From Zingiber officinale (lineage: Eukaryota > Streptophyta > Magnoliopsida > Zingiberales > Zingiberaceae), in assembly GCF_018446385.1 (NCBI RefSeq), contig NC_055998.1:73216744-73280743 (forward strand): a stretch of DNA of 64,000 bases. Direction: 5' to 3'. Shown one piece after another: positions 2,782 through 61,943 of this stretch. The first letter of the stretch is position 1; each line of letters opens with the position of its first letter. The translations under genes were made by a program, and so were the position numbers. Below the pieces are notes generated by a model, which searched no databases, was not told where the DNA came from, and saw only the letters and a program-made list of their open reading frames with translations.

Positions 2782-5700
2782 CTAGGAGTTGGAAACTATG
2801 TCACATTCTTGCTGATCTTTTACTGCATCAACAGCTACAATTTTATTCTCAATAATATCAGAAGTATTGCCAATTAACTCAGTTGTCTGAACAGTTGTAA
2901 GATCGACTTCGGATTTTTCTTCACTATGGAAACTTGTTTTACCTCCTCTAGATAAAATGTTTGTGCAAGCATCACCAGCAGTCTCTACTGACAAATACTG
3001 GGAAGATTTGCCATTGTTAATAGGATCAGCAGAATCATCTGAAATAAAAGATGAATCTTCGGTAGCATTTCCGCAATGGCCAACAGCCTGGGCAGAGTTA
3101 TGGGGCTCGGCTTCAGCAGCAATTAGCTCAGAAGAATCATGAGCTGACTTTATATCTTGATGATCTTTGATGTCGTATTCAATGACTCCAACTGCATAAA
3201 CCACAGAGATGTTTAAAACGGAGAATCACAAAGAAAATGTTCAATAAATGTCAATGTCATCCCATGTGGTCACCTTCATCAACAGGCGTATCATGTTTAG
3301 AAGAATGATTTTCCAGCAGTGGCTTCTGTAGTAAACCAGTACCAGGAAAAACCAATATGTTTATGGACCTAACTTCTAATTCTTGAGAAACCTCAAGCTG
3401 CTTAAAGCTAAATACATTAGTCCATGTTTCCTTTAATTCAGAAATTGCAGGTATGACCAGCTTTTCAATATTAAGGGAAGAGAGAACCTGAAGATGAGAA
3501 CAAATTATTTCAAAAAAAAAAAGAGAGAGAAAATTATTTATAATAACAGATAGCTTGTTAAAGAAAAGGAAAATAGAGATGAGAAAAATTAAATAGTTCA
3601 TAGAATTATAATAAAAGACTGCTTGTTACGAAAGAAAAAGAGGGGACGGGAGAACTACACTATTGCCTAATACAATAGTCTAAGTACTGAAAAATTCACA
3701 AACTGAGTAACAATGTGCACATCCACAAACACCCAAGTGGCTACCTCTTTAAAGTAAAAACAAACCTCAATTAACTATCGACAAAAATGCCTGTAACAAT
3801 GCAATTGCAAACGAAATCAATTTCACACAAAATAACTGCCAATCAGACACCTAATATTTCATTTAGCTTACAGAAGAACCATCAGCCTGTACCAATAAAT
3901 AGTTGGCTAACCCGTAGCCATATTCTTTCATTCTAAAGACAAACATCAGTGAAACATCAGTGGCATTGTAAAGGTTGGCTCCTATGCATCCTCTGCAAGC
4001 CTGGATCTAGGATTTTAAGGCAATCACATAATGGCACTGATCCGGTGGTAAGGTAGGACCCCGCCCCGCAGGAGGTCAACGTCACGTGGAAGGTCAAGGG
4101 CAAGGCGGTCAATGCCCCCAGGCTAGCATCCGACCTGGCGACCCCATCAGCCAGTCGGACTAAGGAATGGTCGGTCCGATGTTAGTACAGCTCGGTCTCG
4201 CACCGAGCTTCCGACACTCAAAGACTATCACCAGAGCAGGCGCCGACCGGCAAGTCATGTGCCGAGCGATTGGGCGTGCATCGTGCAGACATCAGAATCG
4301 CCCACAGATCAGATCACAGCCAACGAAGCGCAGACCCAACCCAGCAAGCCTAGACAGTGGAAATAGCCGAGCGGCCTCCCCGCTCGGCCCAGACAGCAGA
4401 ATTAGCCAAGCGGTCATCCGCTCGGCCCACTAGCAAACAAAAGCTGGCCAAGCGGCCCACCCGCTCGGCCCACTAACAGACAAAGGCAGGATCGACTGGT
4501 ATCCTCCTCGAGACCCGTGCCGCAGACAGATAGCATGGTTGCCGGCATGATCAAGCAGAGAATCGTACGACGGAAGCTTCCACTGTCTTGTCAGGATATG
4601 CTCGAGTTGTTGAGATATGGTGTCAGGTACACTTTTCTGACACGTCCTATCAAGGAAAGCTTTGAGATATGTGCATGCCTCGAGGAGCGTGCGCACGCAC
4701 CCAGGGAGCTCTATATAAAGGACCCCAAGTTTCGACGAAGGTATGTTCATTCTACTGTAGCTACAGTTACGCTGTCACTTTCGCTTCTTTGCTTTCTTGC
4801 TGCTTTCGTCGGAGATCTGACTTGAGCGTCGAAGGGTCATCGTCGGGGAACCACTCCCTGGCTCGGCACTTACGCTTTTGTGCTTGCAGGCTAATCTCAT
4901 CCGAGGTCCACGCACGGTCAACAGGAGCGCCACATCCCCATCGTCCGTCACCTCGACTCTCGGACAGGATCAAATTTGGCGTCGTCTGTGGGAACGCACC
5001 TGCATTCGAGCCGAGAAGATAGAAGAAATTGGACGACTTCACACGGTGACACTCACTCAAGAGGAGCTCGACGCACTTGTACAATCGCGAGCGGCAAAAT
5101 TAGTCGAGCAACAACAGCAAACAGCGCTAGCCGATCGGCTGGTTCAACAAGCAACATCGACTTCGGGAGGCCGAGCGGCCCATGAAGACCAACCGGAGCA
5201 ATTGTCCATCTGGGGGAAGAATAAAGGGTCGACCGACACTCACGGGGAGGCTCCACCCGCGCCTATTCCAGTCCACCGAGCCTTGTTTCAAACGCCCTCC
5301 GAGATTACTCAAGCGAATCAAGGAAGGGGCTCTTCTTCAGATGAAGCACCCGTGCAGGGAGCAAGGAAAGGCAAGACGCCACGAGCTGATTCGTCACCCG
5401 AGCGGATCAACCGCCAGTTCTCCGAGGCAATCCTACAAGATCCGCTGCCAAGGCACTACGCTCCCTTGGCGATCGGAGAATATAACGAGTCGACCGACCC
5501 GGACGACCATCTTGGTAAGTTTGATAACGCTGCTACTCTTCATCAGTACACAGAGGGAGTCAAGTGTCGAGTCTTCCTCGCCACGCTCCCTGGCTCGGCA
5601 CTGACGCTTTTGTGCTTGCAGGCTAGTCTCATCGGAGGTTCACGCACGGTCAACAGGAGCGTCACATCCTCAGCGTCCATCACCTCGACTCTCAGACAGG

Positions 5701-40959: not shown

Positions 40960-41100
40960 AACCAGGGGCGGGCGCCCCTGGTATTCCCCTCCGGGGCGCC
41001 CGGAGGGGATCCGGGCGCCCCGCCCTAAATCAACCCCGGGCGCCCGGAAGGGATCCGGGCGCCCGGAGCTCCCTATAAATAAGGGGCAGCAGGCGCCCCC
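40960..41100 (+). promoter_or_regulatory. Internal promoter-like block of the family-A fossil
   Basis: Repeats of the palindrome CCGGGCGCCCGG and of GGAAGGGATCC lie just before CCCTATAAATAAGG (TATA at 41074-41080). The same layout, GGGCGCCCGGAAGGGATCC then TATA, occurs in the LTR of the same element (44266-44418). It precedes the open region that starts near 41236. Confidence 0.65.
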
Positions 41101-41235: not shown

Positions 41236-42474
41236 ATGGCTCCTCGGTAAAACCTCTTCCCCTATCTGAAATTTTATTTGAAATTATCTTTGCAAACTCT
41301 CTTAGAATATTTTTTTAAACAGTAAGAAACGAACAAATACTGGTGCTGGACCCTCCAATGCTAGTACAGACCCTAGGTTTCCCACAGACGAACTTAGGAT
41401 TAAGTTTGAGTCCACCATTTATAAGGCCATAAGGACTACCTGCATAGATAGATCGTTCTTTCTAAGGTCATGTCCCTCTGCTTTAGAGGTTATAGGCTAC
41501 TATAACTTAACGAACCTTGTCGAATGTACCAGTCCAATAAACATAAGTCTGTGTGCCGAATTTTGCAATAACCTAGTAAAAGTAGACGATTTCACCTATA
41601 CCACTAGGGCAGCAGGCACTGATATCGTATTTTCCCCTACGACTATCCGAGAGTTTTTAGAGTTGCGTCCATCTACTTGCTCCTTTTTGTGCTATCCTCC
41701 GAGGGATCTACCGTTCGAAGATCCCTACTCACATATTACTCTCGATACGATTTATTCGTATTTTTTCGGGGGAGAGAGAGATCCCACGTGACACAGTTTA
41801 GGTCAATAGAACTTCGAGTCCAGAGGGTTGTAGTCCTTTGCATTTTACCACTGACTACTCGGGACATCGCTGTGATGCGCCCATTCCATTCGTTCTTACT
41901 TTATGCCCTGATTCATAGGTTAGACATTGACATTAGCCTACACATCTTCTCCACCATCATCTATTCAGCTGGATTTGTGACTGACAGTCGAGTCCATATA
42001 CCATTTGGTCACATTCTGACAGCCTATATGTCCTCGTTGCACATTGATGTCACTAGGGGAGACGTTGCCCATATGACCGAGTTCGATGTTATAGCCGCTC
42101 GAAACTTTTCCCTAGCCGGTATCCACATAGATAGAGATGACGGGACTATGTCTTGGCGGAGGGGGGCACAGCACCAGCCCGATCCAGACGCACAGGTGGA
42201 CGAGTTCATGCTCGCACTATTTCCAGAGGAAGCCGCACCGGCTCCACCACCACCCCCAGCTCGAGCACCACGACACGCTCCCCGCACTCTAGCCGACTGT
42301 ATGACCGACTAGAGAGAGCTATGGCGAGTCTCCAGCAGGAGAACTCTGATTTTCATCGGGACATACGGCGAGAGGTTGCCGAGTTACGAGCTGCCGGGGA
42401 CACCCGACACACTGAGCTGATGGCACTTCTTCGATCCTTGGGATCTGGACCACCCCCTTCATCATCTCAGTAGC
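41236..42474 (+). mobile_element. Extra open region of the family-A fossil
   Basis: A coding-like stretch without gag or pol signatures (for example FESTIYKAIRTTCIDRSFF, FGHILTAYMSSLHIDV and a proline-rich run PAPPPPPAR). It resembles the domain named putative plant transposon protein that is often carried by plant LTR elements. That match is from memory. It is broken. The function is unknown, and an env-like role is not supported by any visible membrane segment. Confidence 0.55.
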
Positions 42475-43737
42475 CTTAGTGATGACCTACTTCTGTAGCT
42501 ACACTACTTGTAAAATATTTTGGATTTATCTAGTGGCATTTCAAACTTACATTGAATATGTTCTATCTTAATAGGCTAGGATCTTTCAAAAATACTTTCA
42601 AAAATGATTTTACCAACTTATAGGCTAAACTTGTTTGTTTTCAAACTTTCCATTCTTAGACTTTCAAAAACAGTTTTGGCCTGAGACTAGTTTTGAATCC
42701 TTAGAAAGCATGTACCCATAGGTCTAGTTCTTGAGCATCTCACCAACACCTTAGGTTTACCTTGCTTGTGTTTGATAAACATAGAAAGGGGTGAGATACA
42801 TAGGCCAACTGTCTAGACTTAAGATGCTTATTCCAGTGCATCAGCATAAGTCTGGACGTTAAATACAATTCAGATATTAATCAAATTAAAGTTCATCAGT
42901 CAAGTCAAACACTGACTGGTTGTAATTAACTTAATCTGACTAACCAAGTGAAAGCTACTATCTTCTGATAGTTAGTTAGTACCTAATTGGTTAGACAGCT
43001 GGTTAAAGTTAAGTATCAAGTTCAGGGGGAGAATTAACTCAAATTTTGTGTGTTTGAAAAATGTTTTTTTAAAACCTAACATATGTTTGAACATTGATTT
43101 ACAAAAAGTTAAATTTAACCAAAAATTTTGAAAAATGTGAAAGCTTAATCCCACCTGATTTTCAAACCTGATTTGAAAAGTTAACTATTTCAAAATTTAG
43201 CTCTTATCAAATTAGCCTTAAAAATTAATGTTTGACAAAAAATTTTTCTTGAAAAATTACTTAATTTTTTTTGGTTTGAAAAATCAAAGTTGAAAAACTT
43301 ACCTTTTTGAAAAGTAGATAAAAATTTGAAAAACCTATTTTGAAAATTACCACACGCTTGAGAGTTAAACTTGATTAACTTTAAATTTATACTTTTCAAA
43401 ACTACTTGTCTCCCCCAAGTCAACTTGACTATTTTTTAACTTGGTGTCAAAAATTGCACCTTTTTCAAATGTTGAACCAAACCTAGATTTCTTTCAAAAT
43501 TTGATTACCTGTTACAGTAACTCTTCACTATGATTGTTTACCTTTGTTTATTTTTTTTGATGAATGCCAAAGGGGGAGGAGGGCTAGGTGGTTAAGTTAG
43601 CTAAATCAATTTAAAAATACAAACTAAAATTTAAAAATACAAACTAACAAACTTTAAAACCACATAAATGCATGTTGTTTCTTGCATATGTTTTCACTAA
43701 CTTAACCAGGTTGTCATTCCATCAAAAATGGGGAGAT

Positions 43738-44783
43738 TGTTGGTGCGGGTAGCACTAACGGTCTAACCCAGGTTTTGATGAATGACAAATAGGTTAAGTT
43801 AGTCTTGTTGTTGTCTGACACTTTGATCGAGTGTGCAGGAGAAGTCCAAGCGGGTCGACGGGCTGACCGGACGCTTGGCAAGAAGTCCAGCTAGGTCGAC
43901 GGGCTGACCGGATAGCTGGCAAGAAGTCCAGCTAGGTCGACGGGCTGACCGGATAGCTGGCAAGAAGTCCAGACGGGTCGATGGGCTGACCGGACGTCTG
44001 GCAGATAAGTGAGGTAAGTCACTGGAGGGGAGTGACTGTGAGGACGCATTCCCGAGAAGGGGACATTAGGCGTCGATCCGGCTTAGATCCATTTCGGATG
44101 TCTAAGTCGAGATCGTGACTAGATTCCGGTCTCGGAAAGACGGAATCTAAGTCATACTAACTTATGCCAATTCATACTATTACAAATGTGCTAATAATCT
44201 GTTTTGCAGGATATATATTGCCTCGGACTAACTTTGTTTTGCAGGAAAAAGGAGATTTCTGGAACAAGGAGGTCCGGGCGCCCGGAAGGGATCCGGGCGC
44301 CCGGAATGCAAATTATATTCAGCCGAGTCGTCGCCACGTGGAGCATCATGGTTTGTGCAGCTACGTCACATTCCAGGCGCCCGGAAGGAATCCAGGCGCC
44401 CGGAACAGCATATAAAAGAAGCCCCAGACAGGAGCTTCAGGATCAATCAATTCAAACTGAGAACTCTTCTACTGCTGGTCTTGCTGCTCAACGTTCAGTG
44501 CGACGTCAACAAAGCTCCGACACTACGCTCCGTTCTTTTCCCTTTTGTCGGTATTTGTTTTCACTTTTCATTAGCATCTTTTTGTACTTAAATTGTAATT
44601 ATCCGAATTGCTAGTGAATTGCCCAACGAAAGTACTCAAGGAGTACGGGTCTTCGAGTAGGAGTCGTCAAAGGCTCCGAACGAAGTAAAACCATTGTGTC
44701 TATTTTACTTTTTCCGCTGCACTTATACTCTGTATTTTCGAATCGATATTCACCCCCCCTCTATCGAATCTAACGGTCCTACA
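43738..44783 (+). mobile_element. 3' LTR of the plus-strand family-A fossil
   Basis: A 1046-bp LTR, starting TGTTGGTGCGGG after the polypurine tract and ending TCCTACA. It holds the 41-nt hairpin array (43846-44001), palindromic GGGCGCCCGG pairs (44270-44403) and TATAAAAG at 44411-44418. Confidence 0.85.
43844..44003 (+). repeat. Array of four 41-nt hairpin units with compensating arms
   Basis: Arms lie at 43846-43852/43872-43878 (CCAAGCG/CGCTTGG), 43887-43893/43913-43919 and 43928-43934/43954-43960 (CCAGCTA/TAGCTGG), and 43969-43975/43995-44001 (CCAGACG/CGTCTGG). The core GGTCGACGGGCTGACCGGA is shared, with one change in unit 4. The period is exactly 41 nt. Confidence 0.95.
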
Positions 44784-52600: not shown

Positions 52601-52902
52601 AGAGCAGTTCCTTTCTCGACCTGTTTTGAGTTAGTCTGCTCATAGAGTTCGAGTTCACAAAATAATTCATCAAGTTTAATTTGGAAAGATTCTTCGAAAT
52701 CTTGTAAGCATCCACGATGGATGCCCACAGTGCATTTTGAGGAAATGCGTTTAGAGCGTACCTTATTAGATCGCGGTTCTCCATTTGGTGGTTGATAGTG
52801 TGAAGCCCGTTGAGGATGCCCTTTATCCTCGCATGGAGTTGACTCGCAGATTCTCCTTCCTGAAGTTTAATATTAAATAACTTATTCAAGTAGAGATCTT
52901 GT

Positions 52903-54436
52903 TGTTAGGACCAAAAGTAGCTAGAGGGGGGGGGGGGGGGGGGGAATAGCTCGTCGCGCTCGCTCGTTGCTCGGCGTTGCTTGTTCCTTCAAAGATGTGC
53001 AGCGGAAATACAAAGAAACAATCACACAACGCTAACACGGTTGGTTTACTTGGTATCCACCTCACAAGAGGTGACTAATCCAAGGATCCACACCAACACA
53101 CACACCCTCCACTAAATAAAACTCTCCTTTATGGTAACTACCAAGGGCGGAGAAGCCCTACAAGACTCAATACAAGAAGAGAGGGAAAGGATACAAGAAA
53201 TACAAGCTTACAAGCTTACAATGAGTATAAACCCTAACCCTAGCTTCTCTTCTTGGCTTTGATCCGCCTCTTGACTTGGAAAACTTCCAAGATCCTTCAA
53301 GAATTGGCGATCTGAGCTTTGTGAGTGCTGTGGAGGAGCTGGCGAGAAATCTGGAGTGAATCGGAGAAGAGATGCCGAAGGAAATGAACGCCTGCGGCCT
53401 TTATCGACGCCAACGGTCGGATCCCGATCGATTCAAATGTTCCCAATCGATCGAGGAGGCTTTGGATCGATCCACGGATCGATCCAGCGCTTATCGAAAA
53501 GCGCCTGGATCGATCAACGGATCGATCCAGCGCTTATCGCGCGAAGCAGCCGCGTCCCAATCGATCCACTGATCGATTGGAACATCTGGATCGATCCACG
53601 GATCGATCCAGAGGCTCTCTATTCGCTTAGGAGAAGCCTGGATCGATCCACTGATCGATCCAACACTAGGTTTTTGCCCAAAACCAAGTTCCAAGCCTCT
53701 CAAACCAACATCCGGTCAACCTTGACCTGTTGGTACATCATGCCTAGCATCTGGTCACTTCTTTGACCTGCTAGGACTTCCCACCAAGTGTCTGGTCAAT
53801 CCCTTTGACCCACTTAGACTTTTCTATTCATGCCAAGTATTTGGTCACTCTCTTGACCTACTTGGACTTCCCAACACCAGATGCCCAATCATCCTTGATC
53901 CATCTGGATTTTCCCTTGCATGGCTTCACTCACTAGGACTTTCACCTAGCTTCACTCACTAGGGTTTTCCATCTGCCTAGCTTCACTCACTAGGGCTTTC
54001 ACCTGGCTTCACTCACCAGGACTTTCACCTAGCTTCACTCATTAGGGTTTTCCTTCTGTCTGGCTTCACTCACCAGGACTTTCACCTAGTTTCACTCACT
54101 AGGGTTTTCACCTGGTTTCACTCACCAAGACTTTCACCTAGCTTCACTCACTAGGGTTTTCCTTCTGCCTGGCTTCACTCACCAGGACTTTCACCTAGCT
54201 TCACTCACTAGGGTTTTCACCTGGTTTCACTTACCAGGATTTTCACCTAGCTTCACTCACTAGGGTTTTCCTTCTGCCTGGCTTCACTCACCAGGACTTC
54301 CTTGTCAAGTATCCGGTCAACCTTGACCTACTTGACTCTTCTTCAATCAATTTCTTATTGTCAAACATCTAAACTCAAACCAAGACTCAGCTTGGTCACC
54401 CAGGTCAACCTTGACCTGAGGGATGTTGCACCAACA
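52903..54436 (-). repeat. 3' LTR of the gag-only element
   Basis: Contains, in plus coordinates, a G run near 52926-52943, a GATCGATC palindrome array (53463-53672), five GGTCA/TGACC hairpins (53705-53907) and a CCTAG/CCTGG hairpin array (53919-54295). Confidence 0.93.
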
Positions 54437-58482: not shown

Positions 58483-58652
58483 CCTCGTGTCGAATCCGAG
58501 TCCATCTTGGAATTACATCTTGAAGTTGAGCTTTTTGATATCTTTGACTTTGACAATTTTTGCTTCAACTTCTTCACCCTCTAGCTTTTCTTGTTATGCT
58601 TGACCCTTCTGGCGATGATTCCGGTGAAGAGCGGTCTCGCTCTGATACCACT

Positions 58653-60195
58653 TGTTAGGACCAAAAGTAGCTAGAGGGGGGGGGGGAGGTGAATAGCTCG
58701 TCGCGTTCGCTCGTTGCTCGGCGTTGCTTGTTCCTTCAAAGATGTGCAGCGGAAATACAAAGAAACAATCACACAACGCTAACACGGTTGGTTTACTTGG
58801 TATCCACCTCACAAGAGGTGACTAATCCAAGGATCCACACCAACACACACACCCTCCACTAAATAAAACTCTCCTTTATGGTAACTACCAAGGGCGGAGA
58901 AGCCCTACAAGACTCAATACAAGAAGAGAGGGAAAGGATACAAGAAATACAAGCTTACAAGCTTACAATGAGTATAAACCCTAACCCTAGCTTCTCTTCT
59001 TGGCTTTGATCCGCCTCTTGACTTGGAAAACTTCCAAGATCCTTCAAGAACTGGCGATCTGAGCTTTGTGAGTGCTGTGGAGGAGCTGGCGAGAAATCTG
59101 GAGTGAATCGGAGAAGAGATGCCGAAGGAAATGAACGCCTGCGGCCTTTATCGACGCCAACGGTCGGATCCCGATCGATTCGAATGTTCCCAATCGATCG
59201 GGAGGCTTTGGATCGATCCACGGATCGATCCGGCGCTTATCGCGAAAAGCGCTGGATCGATCACGGATCGATCCGGCGCTATCAGCAGCAAGCGGGCCCC
59301 AATCGATCACCGATCGATTGAACATTGGATCGATCCACGGATCGATCCGGAGGCTCTCTGTTAGAGCAGCTGGATCGATCCATTGATCGATCCGGATCTG
59401 AATCGATCCAGCGATCAATCCAACACTTGGTTTTGCCCAAAACCAAGTTCCAAGCCTCTCAAAACAACATCCGGTCAACCTTGACCTGTTGGTACATCAT
59501 GCCTAGCATCTGGTCACTCCTTTGACCTGCTAGGACTTCCCACCAAGTGTCTGGTCAATCCCTTTGACCCACTTAGACTTTTCTATTCATGCTAAGTATC
59601 TGGTCACTCCCTTGACCTACTTGGACTTCCCAACACCAGATGTCCGATCATCCTTGATCCATCTGGATTTTCCCTTGCCTGGCTTCACTCACCAGGACTT
59701 TCACCTAGCTTCACTCACTAGGGTTTTCCATCTGCCTAGCTTCACTCACTAGGGCTTTCACCTGGCTTCACTCACCAGGACTTTCACCTAGCTTCACTCA
59801 CTAGGGTTTTCCTTCTGCCTGGCTTCACTCACCAGGACTTTCACCTAGCTTCACTCACTAGGGTTTTCACCTGGTTTCACTCACCAGGACTTTCACCTAG
59901 CTTCACTCACTAGGGTTTTCCTTCTGCCTGGCTTCACTCACCAGGACTTTCACCTAGCTTCACTCACTAGGGTTTTCACCTGGTTTCACTCACCAGGACT
60001 TTCACCTAGCTTCACTCACTAGGGTTTTCCTTCTGCCTGGCTTCACTCACCAGGACTTCCTTGTCAAGTATCCGGTCAACCTTGACCTACTTGACTCTTC
60101 TTCAATCAATTTCTTATTGTCAAACATCTAAACTCAAACCAAGACTCAGCTTGGTCACCCAGGTCAACCTTGACCTGAGGGATGTTGCACCAACA
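58653..60195 (-). repeat. 5' LTR of the gag-only element
   Basis: Near-identical to 52903-54436 over its first 500 bases; most differences lie in the GATCGATC and hairpin arrays (59212-59432, about 59467-59670, 59678-60054). Confidence 0.93.
59678..60054. repeat. Array of 14 short hairpins with two arm types
   Basis: Each unit is a 5-bp stem with the loop CTTCACTCA or TTTCACTCA: either CCTAG/CTAGG or CCTGG/CCAGG. All 14 units read here have matching arms. The two types are interleaved at roughly 27-38 nt spacing. The counterpart in the other LTR is 53919-54295. Confidence 0.9.
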
Positions 60196-60809: not shown

Positions 60810-61943
60810 TGTTGGATCGTAAAGTTCGCTAGAGGGGGGTGGGGTGAATAGCGATCGTCAAAAATCGTAAACTAAATCGAATATATAGCGGAAAGTAAAA
60901 ACAAACAATGCTAACAAACCAATTTTACTTGGTTCGGAGCCTTCGTCGACTCCTACTCTAAGGCCCGCACTCGTCGAGTGCTTTTGTTGGACAATCCACT
61001 AATAGTTCGTAAAAAGAGTTACAAGATTAGTACAAGAACTATAGAACTAAATTACCAACAACAAGAAAATTAAAACATAGTCACAGGTTGTCGGAGGAGC
61101 TTCGTAGCATCGTAGGAGTGTCTTTAGAGCAGTGCGCAACAAAGTAATCGTGGGAAAAGAGTTGTTTTTAATGCTCTGGTGGAGGCTCCTTATATAGGTA
61201 GCTCTGGGCATCTAGATCCCTTCCGGGTGCCTGGACCGTGACGTCGGCCCAACTAATCAGAGCGCTCCATATTTGCGACGAGATAAACTTTTGCATTCCG
61301 GGCGCCTGGACCAATTTCGAGCACCCAGACCAGCTCTGAGCACCCGGATCCCTTCCGGGCGCTCGGACCACTTTTTCCAGCAAAGTTTTTTCCTGCAAGA
61401 AAAAGATTAGTCCGAGACAATAAACATTATATTATCCTGCAAAACAAAAATTACCACAATTATAAAAACATAGTAGTAATTATATTCTATCTCCTCGAGA
61501 CCAGAATGTAGTCAAGATCTTAACTTAGATTTCTAAAATGGATCTAAGTTGGATCGACGCCTACTGTTCCCTCAAACGGGGAACGCGTCCTCACCAAGTT
61601 ACTCTCCTCTAATGACTTACCTTAACTTACTGTCTTGACAAACATTCGGTCAGTCTGTCGACCTGTCTGGACTTCGTGCTAGCTATCCGATCGGCTCATT
61701 GACTTAACTAGACTTCGTGCTAGATATCTAGTCAGCCCGTCGACCTATCTGGACTTCATACCAGCTATTCGGTCAGCTCGTCGACCTAGCTAAATTTTGT
61801 ACCAGCTATCCAGTCGGTCCGTCGACCTATCTGGACTTTTCCTGCACACTTAGTTAATTTGTTAGATCACAATAAACCTAGTTTAATTTACTTTGTCGTT
61901 CATCAAAACCTGAGTTAGACCATTAATGCAACTTGCACTAACA
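60810..61943 (-). repeat. 5' LTR of the minus-strand family-A copy
   Basis: A 1134-bp LTR. On the minus strand it starts TGTTAGTGCAAGTTGC and ends GATCCAACA, matching the LTR at 43738-44783. A decayed version of the 41-nt hairpin array lies at about 61630-61840, and GGGCGCC-type motifs at 61200-61370. Confidence 0.85.

Follow-up and report, generated by a model that had tools for sequence, protein, structure and literature searches.

Palindromic repeated motifs upstream of the TATA box were described in 2010 for the long terminal repeats (LTRs) of Sireviruses, and that paper also describes an inverted repeat around the PPT/3' LTR junction as well as a C-rich integrase signal near the LTR end (Bousios et al., PMC2829016). 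In maize, the palindromes of Sirevirus LTRs were linked to small RNAs (Bousios 2016, as cited in PMC10760457). A sequence-only reading of the locus described here had stated that there is no named feature of this kind, which does not hold in view of the motifs known since 2010: LTR palindromes themselves are already known, and the hairpin array with paired arms is a form of a known palindromic control region. What appears to be new is the contrast between two-sided arm changes between lineages and one-sided decay within copies. We found no description of covarying arms in an LTR array in the literature covered by our search (titles and beginnings of abstracts, with subscription journals mostly outside the coverage), and neither "compensat" nor "hairpin" occurs in the text of PMC2829016.

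The window, which is the entire stretch of 64,000 nucleotides from Zingiber officinale that was analyzed (NC_055998.1, positions 73,216,744 to 73,280,743), carries on its plus strand a 3' LTR of 1046 bp (TG...CA, 43738-44783), delimited by the ends read in the sequence, by family copies and by an older relative within the window. The LTR is preceded by the terminal PPT ATGGGGAG (43728-43735), which is one base off the Sirevirus octamer given in PMC2829016 and is followed by AT/TG; extra PPT copies are located in the linker, i.e. an exact octamer at 43571-43578 and another exact copy at 43024. A repeat scan revealed an inverted repeat around the PPT/LTR junction (43696-43803; arms 43696-43732 and 43767-43803, 76% complementary) and four short palindromic boxes, TCC(G/A)GGCGCCCGGA, at 44273, 44292, 44372 and 44391 (together 44273-44404), of which the last two contain an A.C mismatch. 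A TATA box (TATAAAA) is located in the middle of the LTR (44411-44418) and a C-rich stretch near its end (approximately 44751-44759), all on the plus strand. Based on the PPT, the attachment site, the inverted repeat, the TATA box, the C-rich signal and the relatives, we mark the element as a probable Sirevirus (Ty1/copia).

No 5' LTR of this element was found within the 64-kb window, and a scan of ten ORF pieces from 33.8 to 42.5 kb revealed no copia gag or pol domain. The earlier assignment to a copia-type LTR is supported through relatives; L027, for example, contains the domains Retrotran_gag_2, Pol_BBD, rve and RVT_2, i.e. copia gag, integrase and reverse transcriptase. Also among relatives only, the 5' LTR/PBS junction CA/A(T/G)TGG-TATCAGAGC was present within 2 changes in all six long loci, and 5-bp target duplications were identified in L017, L027 and L052, the three elements with both flanks and LTR ends available. 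Within the window, four TCCGGGCGCCCGGA-like boxes followed by TATAAATAA are located at 40991-41081 (plus strand), a block which also occurs in L017 and partly in L048. An ORF weakly matching Transposase_32 (41306-41788) follows about 230 nt downstream of this block, which is LTR-promoter-like and internal to the element; PMC2829016 sought such a promoter near the envelope gene.

As read in the sequence, four hairpins of 33 nt each, separated by 8-nt spacers, follow one another in the LTR at an exact period of 41 nt (43846-44001, plus strand). The tandem-repeat scan reported 3.8 copies with a period of 41 at 43840-43994, and the direct-repeat scan unit spacings of 41, 41 and 41. Unit 1 (43846-43878) carries arm type B (CCAAGCG/CGCTTGG), units 2 (43887-43919) and 3 (43928-43960) carry arm type A (CCAGCTA/TAGCTGG), and unit 4 (43969-44001) carries arm type C (CCAGACG/CGTCTGG). 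The arms are exact reverse complements in all four units, and the core GGTCGACGGGCTGACCGGA is exact in three of them, with one C>T change in the fourth, so that the period, the mirrored arm changes and the nearly constant core are as the sequence-only reading had described them. Single-unit folding, which included units 1, 2 and 4, gave the same structure for the five unit types tried, i.e. a 7-bp arm, a 3-nt bulge on the 3' side (GGA), an inner five-pair stem and a loop of 6 nt. When up to 3 mismatches are allowed, the core is found eight times in the window, four times in the array and four times in an older related minus-strand LTR near 61.7 kb, but not once in any of 100 dinucleotide shuffles of the window. 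In this second LTR (61942-60923), the core search and comparison with relatives identified five decayed units of an older subfamily at 61638-61834 (minus strand). A fresh compensating change within the window array is rejected: its three arm types are inherited and occur across the family, and the array alone therefore provides no evidence of such a change.

The window contains further repeats. Another palindromic tandem array with a period of 39, GCC(G/A)AGCGG...CCGCTCGGC, which represents a different repeat and has a TATA-like site downstream, is located at 4348-4472 (plus strand). Two 95% identical copies with tandem arrays of 26/83/109 nt (TTCACTCACTAGG/CACCAGG) at 52902-54436 and 58652-60195 are possibly the LTR pair of another element.

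Compared with the RM boxes of Sireviruses described in PMC2829016, the array is likewise palindromic, repeated, rich in G+C and CpG (G+C 0.63, CpG observed/expected 0.97 and 1.09), located upstream of a TATA box and found in an element with the same junctions. In contrast to RM boxes, the units are longer (33 nt at a 41-nt period), fold into a bulged stem-loop and have arms that change in pairs. The four long units start about 100 bp into the LTR, compared to 200-400 bp for RM boxes, and are followed by the four short boxes from about 535 bp. RM boxes are present in at least eight copies and form a CpG island; we counted 3-8 units per array in 95 arrays, 3 being required for inclusion. The CGG...CCG signature of RM boxes is present here in some arm types only; the short boxes have it as their core, and a left CGG is confined to types B and C among the 41-nt units. 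The palindrome cluster of maize Sirevirus LTRs is similar in that its palindromes are able to form hairpins, but its motif CACCGGACNNNGTCCGGTG is unlike the units of the window (PMC10760457). On sequence grounds, the best explanation of the array is a palindromic cis region of a Sirevirus LTR with units that would be stem-loops.

In the host assembly (3.09 Gb, 211 contigs), we identified 38,363 exact-core units over the two strands (19,248 and 19,115), while the reversed core used as a control had no match in the whole assembly. Forty of 9,816 LTR candidates were scored for the young family and 40 of 19,177 for the older subfamily, which includes the second LTR of the window. The samples comprise the best-scoring young LTRs (L009-L046), arrays located within the first 11 Mb of contig 1 (L047-L080) and 20 LTRs of the old subfamily (L081-L100). 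The main counts, including those of half-types and chimeras, rest on 492 units in 95 arrays, defined as runs of at least 3 units with a spacing of 38-44 nt and up to 7 core changes, L001-L008 being left out. The divergent minus-strand array of L012 was included in the shuffling of right arms and left out of the counts of short boxes in 40 LTRs and of units per array.

Six arm combinations occur in at least 11 of the 95 arrays, and all six are perfectly complementary: type A (75 arrays), type B (57), type C (44), type D (CCAGACA, 25), type E (CTAGCTA, 16) and type F (CCAGATA, 11). The commonest unpaired combinations, on the other hand, do not exceed 8 arrays each. The distances between the types permit a chain E-A-F-D-C-B of six base-pair steps, each of which is two-sided. 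In a set of one representative per type and one old A unit, all picked as perfect examples, 5 of the 7 arm pairs change on both sides and none on one side, a covariation score that was reached by 0 of 500 shuffles. In old arrays, the slots are fixed, mostly as F A F A D, and young arrays read A B A B C, A B E E A C, D A B A C, D A B A B C and others; in place of the F and D of the old subfamily, young arrays contain D, B and C. In the young best-scoring copies, 175 of 220 units are paired, compared to a mean of 56.8 and a maximum of 78 when right arms were shuffled within arrays. Chance as the source of the matched arms is rejected by these shuffles and by those of the core. The earlier statement that chance cannot easily give the pattern is therefore justified once the relatives are included, with six common types paired and copy changes mostly one-sided. 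A variant of unit B with one extra right-arm base and the next unit at 42 nt is common to L047, L058, L059, L063 and L077 and is a bulged stem that was apparently passed on.

Individual copies show a different pattern. Across all arrays, excluding 8 of the 492 units for which no type lies within 3 changes, 225 changes are one-sided (106 left-only, 119 right-only) and 10 are two-sided (7 complementary; 4.4 expected). When old copies, including that of the window, were compared with their slot types, which were assigned manually (F A F A D or F A F A A D; F F A A D for L096), 63 left-only, 64 right-only and 6 two-sided changes (3 complementary) were counted, with 6.3 two-sided changes expected if the sides are independent. 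The young best-scoring copies show 15 left, 26 right and 1 complementary two-sided change (0.29 expected; 3 of 220 units left out, 3 chimeras set apart). The slight two-sided excess within copies may result from mixed copy ages, unit exchange or a few real compensations. Paired units amount to 117 of 168 in the contig-1 sample and 24 of 104 in the old subfamily. C>T decay is an unlikely source of the matched type changes, since decay is one-sided, with C>T or G>A accounting for 167 of the 225 one-sided changes, and since the step A-F is a transversion. A Fisher test of type steps against copy changes (6/0 vs 7/225) gave 7e-9, a value to be taken as a guide only, because the types were picked by frequency and copies and steps were treated as independent. 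From the paired types, the two-sided type differences and the mostly one-sided copy decay, we conclude that pairing is kept between lineages and lost after insertion. The sequence-only reading had counted independent variation of the arms in other copies against its case; such variation is indeed found within individual copies, but not between lineages.

We consider selection on pairing to be the probable explanation of the matched arms, with a probability of roughly 0.58. Elements with pairable units would be those that keep spreading, and a new arm sequence would persist when both sides match; the near-constant core would be the part that is read and the arm a clamp on it. Against this explanation stand the modest RNA folding, the lack of G.T arm pairs in the common types, the fourth short box that was re-paired in some LTRs, the bulged variant of unit B in five arrays and the slight two-sided excess within copies.

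Alternatively, as the sequence-only reading had suggested, a copying process could keep the arms complementary, with the growing strand folding back during reverse transcription or DNA repair and copying one arm from the other without any selection for structure. It is known that inverted-repeat arms can be matched by template switching, a process that also gives rise to compensatory changes and would likewise explain the matched changes observed here (PMC8794818, PMC8604942). In line with such copying, the common types contain only Watson-Crick arm pairs, four perfectly paired new combinations were found in one array each, and the fourth short box was re-paired in 7 of 40 LTRs. In contrast to the systems described in these papers, however, loop inversion, which one of the template-switch routes would leave behind, is nearly absent, with a single exact inverted core in the genome and none in the 95 arrays, which disfavors switching between strands as the main cause; a fold-back on the same strand would leave the loop uninverted. 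Moreover, the nearby third short box has one unpaired position in all of 40 LTRs, without a single case of re-pairing. Copies decay one-sidedly and fresh changes mostly unpair the arms, although correction limited to transposition would spare dead copies. Because of the rare loop inversion and the persistent mismatch of the third box, selection on pairing is favored, and correction by copying appears unlikely, weakened but with the re-paired fourth box in its favor.

It is less probable still that the units are dyad-symmetric protein-binding sites in DNA, whose symmetry serves a dimer without folding of a strand. Palindromic motifs upstream of the TATA box have been proposed as cis-regulatory boxes (PMC2829016), and the near-constant core would fit such a role; yet sequence-specific binding does not require arms that keep their complementarity while their sequence changes, as is the case here, and the halves are unequal because of the 3-nt bulge. 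An absence of any constraint, with a few ancestral units whose inherited arms were shuffled and amplified, is very improbable and already disfavored. Although the types of the window occur family-wide and whole units distinguish one array from another, each single base-pair step between the types is two-sided, and the old subfamily differs in its types from young arrays. The earlier reading had counted descent from three ancestral units against its case, and the types of the window are indeed inherited.

If pairing is selected, several molecules come into question. Since about 410 bp separate the end of the array from the downstream TATA box, the array is located in U3; it could be active in the DNA of the 5' LTR, in the single-stranded DNA formed by reverse transcription or in the genomic RNA, close to its 3' end. 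When the window array was folded as RNA, this gave a z of -1.59, with 9 of 200 shuffles folding as well, whereas folding with DNA parameters gave a z of -3.70, which none of 200 shuffles matched. In natural arrays with differing neighbors, the probability that paired units pair with their own arm averaged 0.24 for the sense strand and 0.48 for the antisense strand. A strong RNA structure thus has modest support only, in view of the z of -1.59 and the sense value. G.T arm pairs are found in none of the common types, as judged from chosen examples, which is less than expected if only RNA pairing mattered. A stem-loop that is read through its core would show the pattern seen here, with arms of variable sequence but preserved pairing and with a near-constant core, bulge and loop. 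We consider a hairpin on the promoter side or at the cDNA stage more likely than an RNA-only one.

Left and right types match in 312 of the 339 units in which both arms are exact types, although neighboring units differ in type in 271 of 292 cases; the other 27 units are mostly one C>T or G>A apart (A/E, E/A, F/D, D/F, C/D), and units joining clearly different types (A/C twice, B/C, C/A, A/B) occur once per array. Between the two LTRs of one element, the array structure differs in 9 of 11 pairs while the flanks are much alike (alignments read by eye), the pairing of 5 of the 11 being based on spacing, strand and the PPT before the downstream copy only (array pieces). Units were lost, gained or damaged in L017, L027, L054, L055, L068/L069, L070/L071, L072/L073, L075/L076 and L078/L079, and in most of these pairs the hairpin is damaged in at least one LTR; a 21-nt loss of the left arm and loop recurred in L055 and L070, and the target duplication was unreadable for L048, L054 and L055. 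These differences reflect either a real hotspot or assembly errors, and some of the damage looks like the latter.

The arms might also serve as address labels, with selection for pairing within a unit and for difference between units so that hairpins fold on themselves rather than with their neighbors, an idea we regard as doubtful. Same-type neighbors occur less often than after shuffling of the arrays (8 of 100 vs a mean of 17.3, with a fraction of 0.0015 of shuffles as low), based on 26 distinct arrays from the 54 of 95 with left arms that are all exact types, which share ancestry. The own-arm pairing probability of paired units was 0.067 with a same-type neighbor (36 units) and 0.242 without (280 units) in the sense strand, and 0.088 and 0.478, respectively, in the antisense strand. 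Duplication of two-unit blocks is a plainer cause of the alternation of types.

Whether the palindromes of plant LTRs reflect selected pairing or mere binding sites is hard to test in general. The family described here offers tens of thousands of units, with dead copies as a neutral control, and its contrast between lineage changes, which are two-sided, and copy changes, which are one-sided, makes the question of pairing directly testable.
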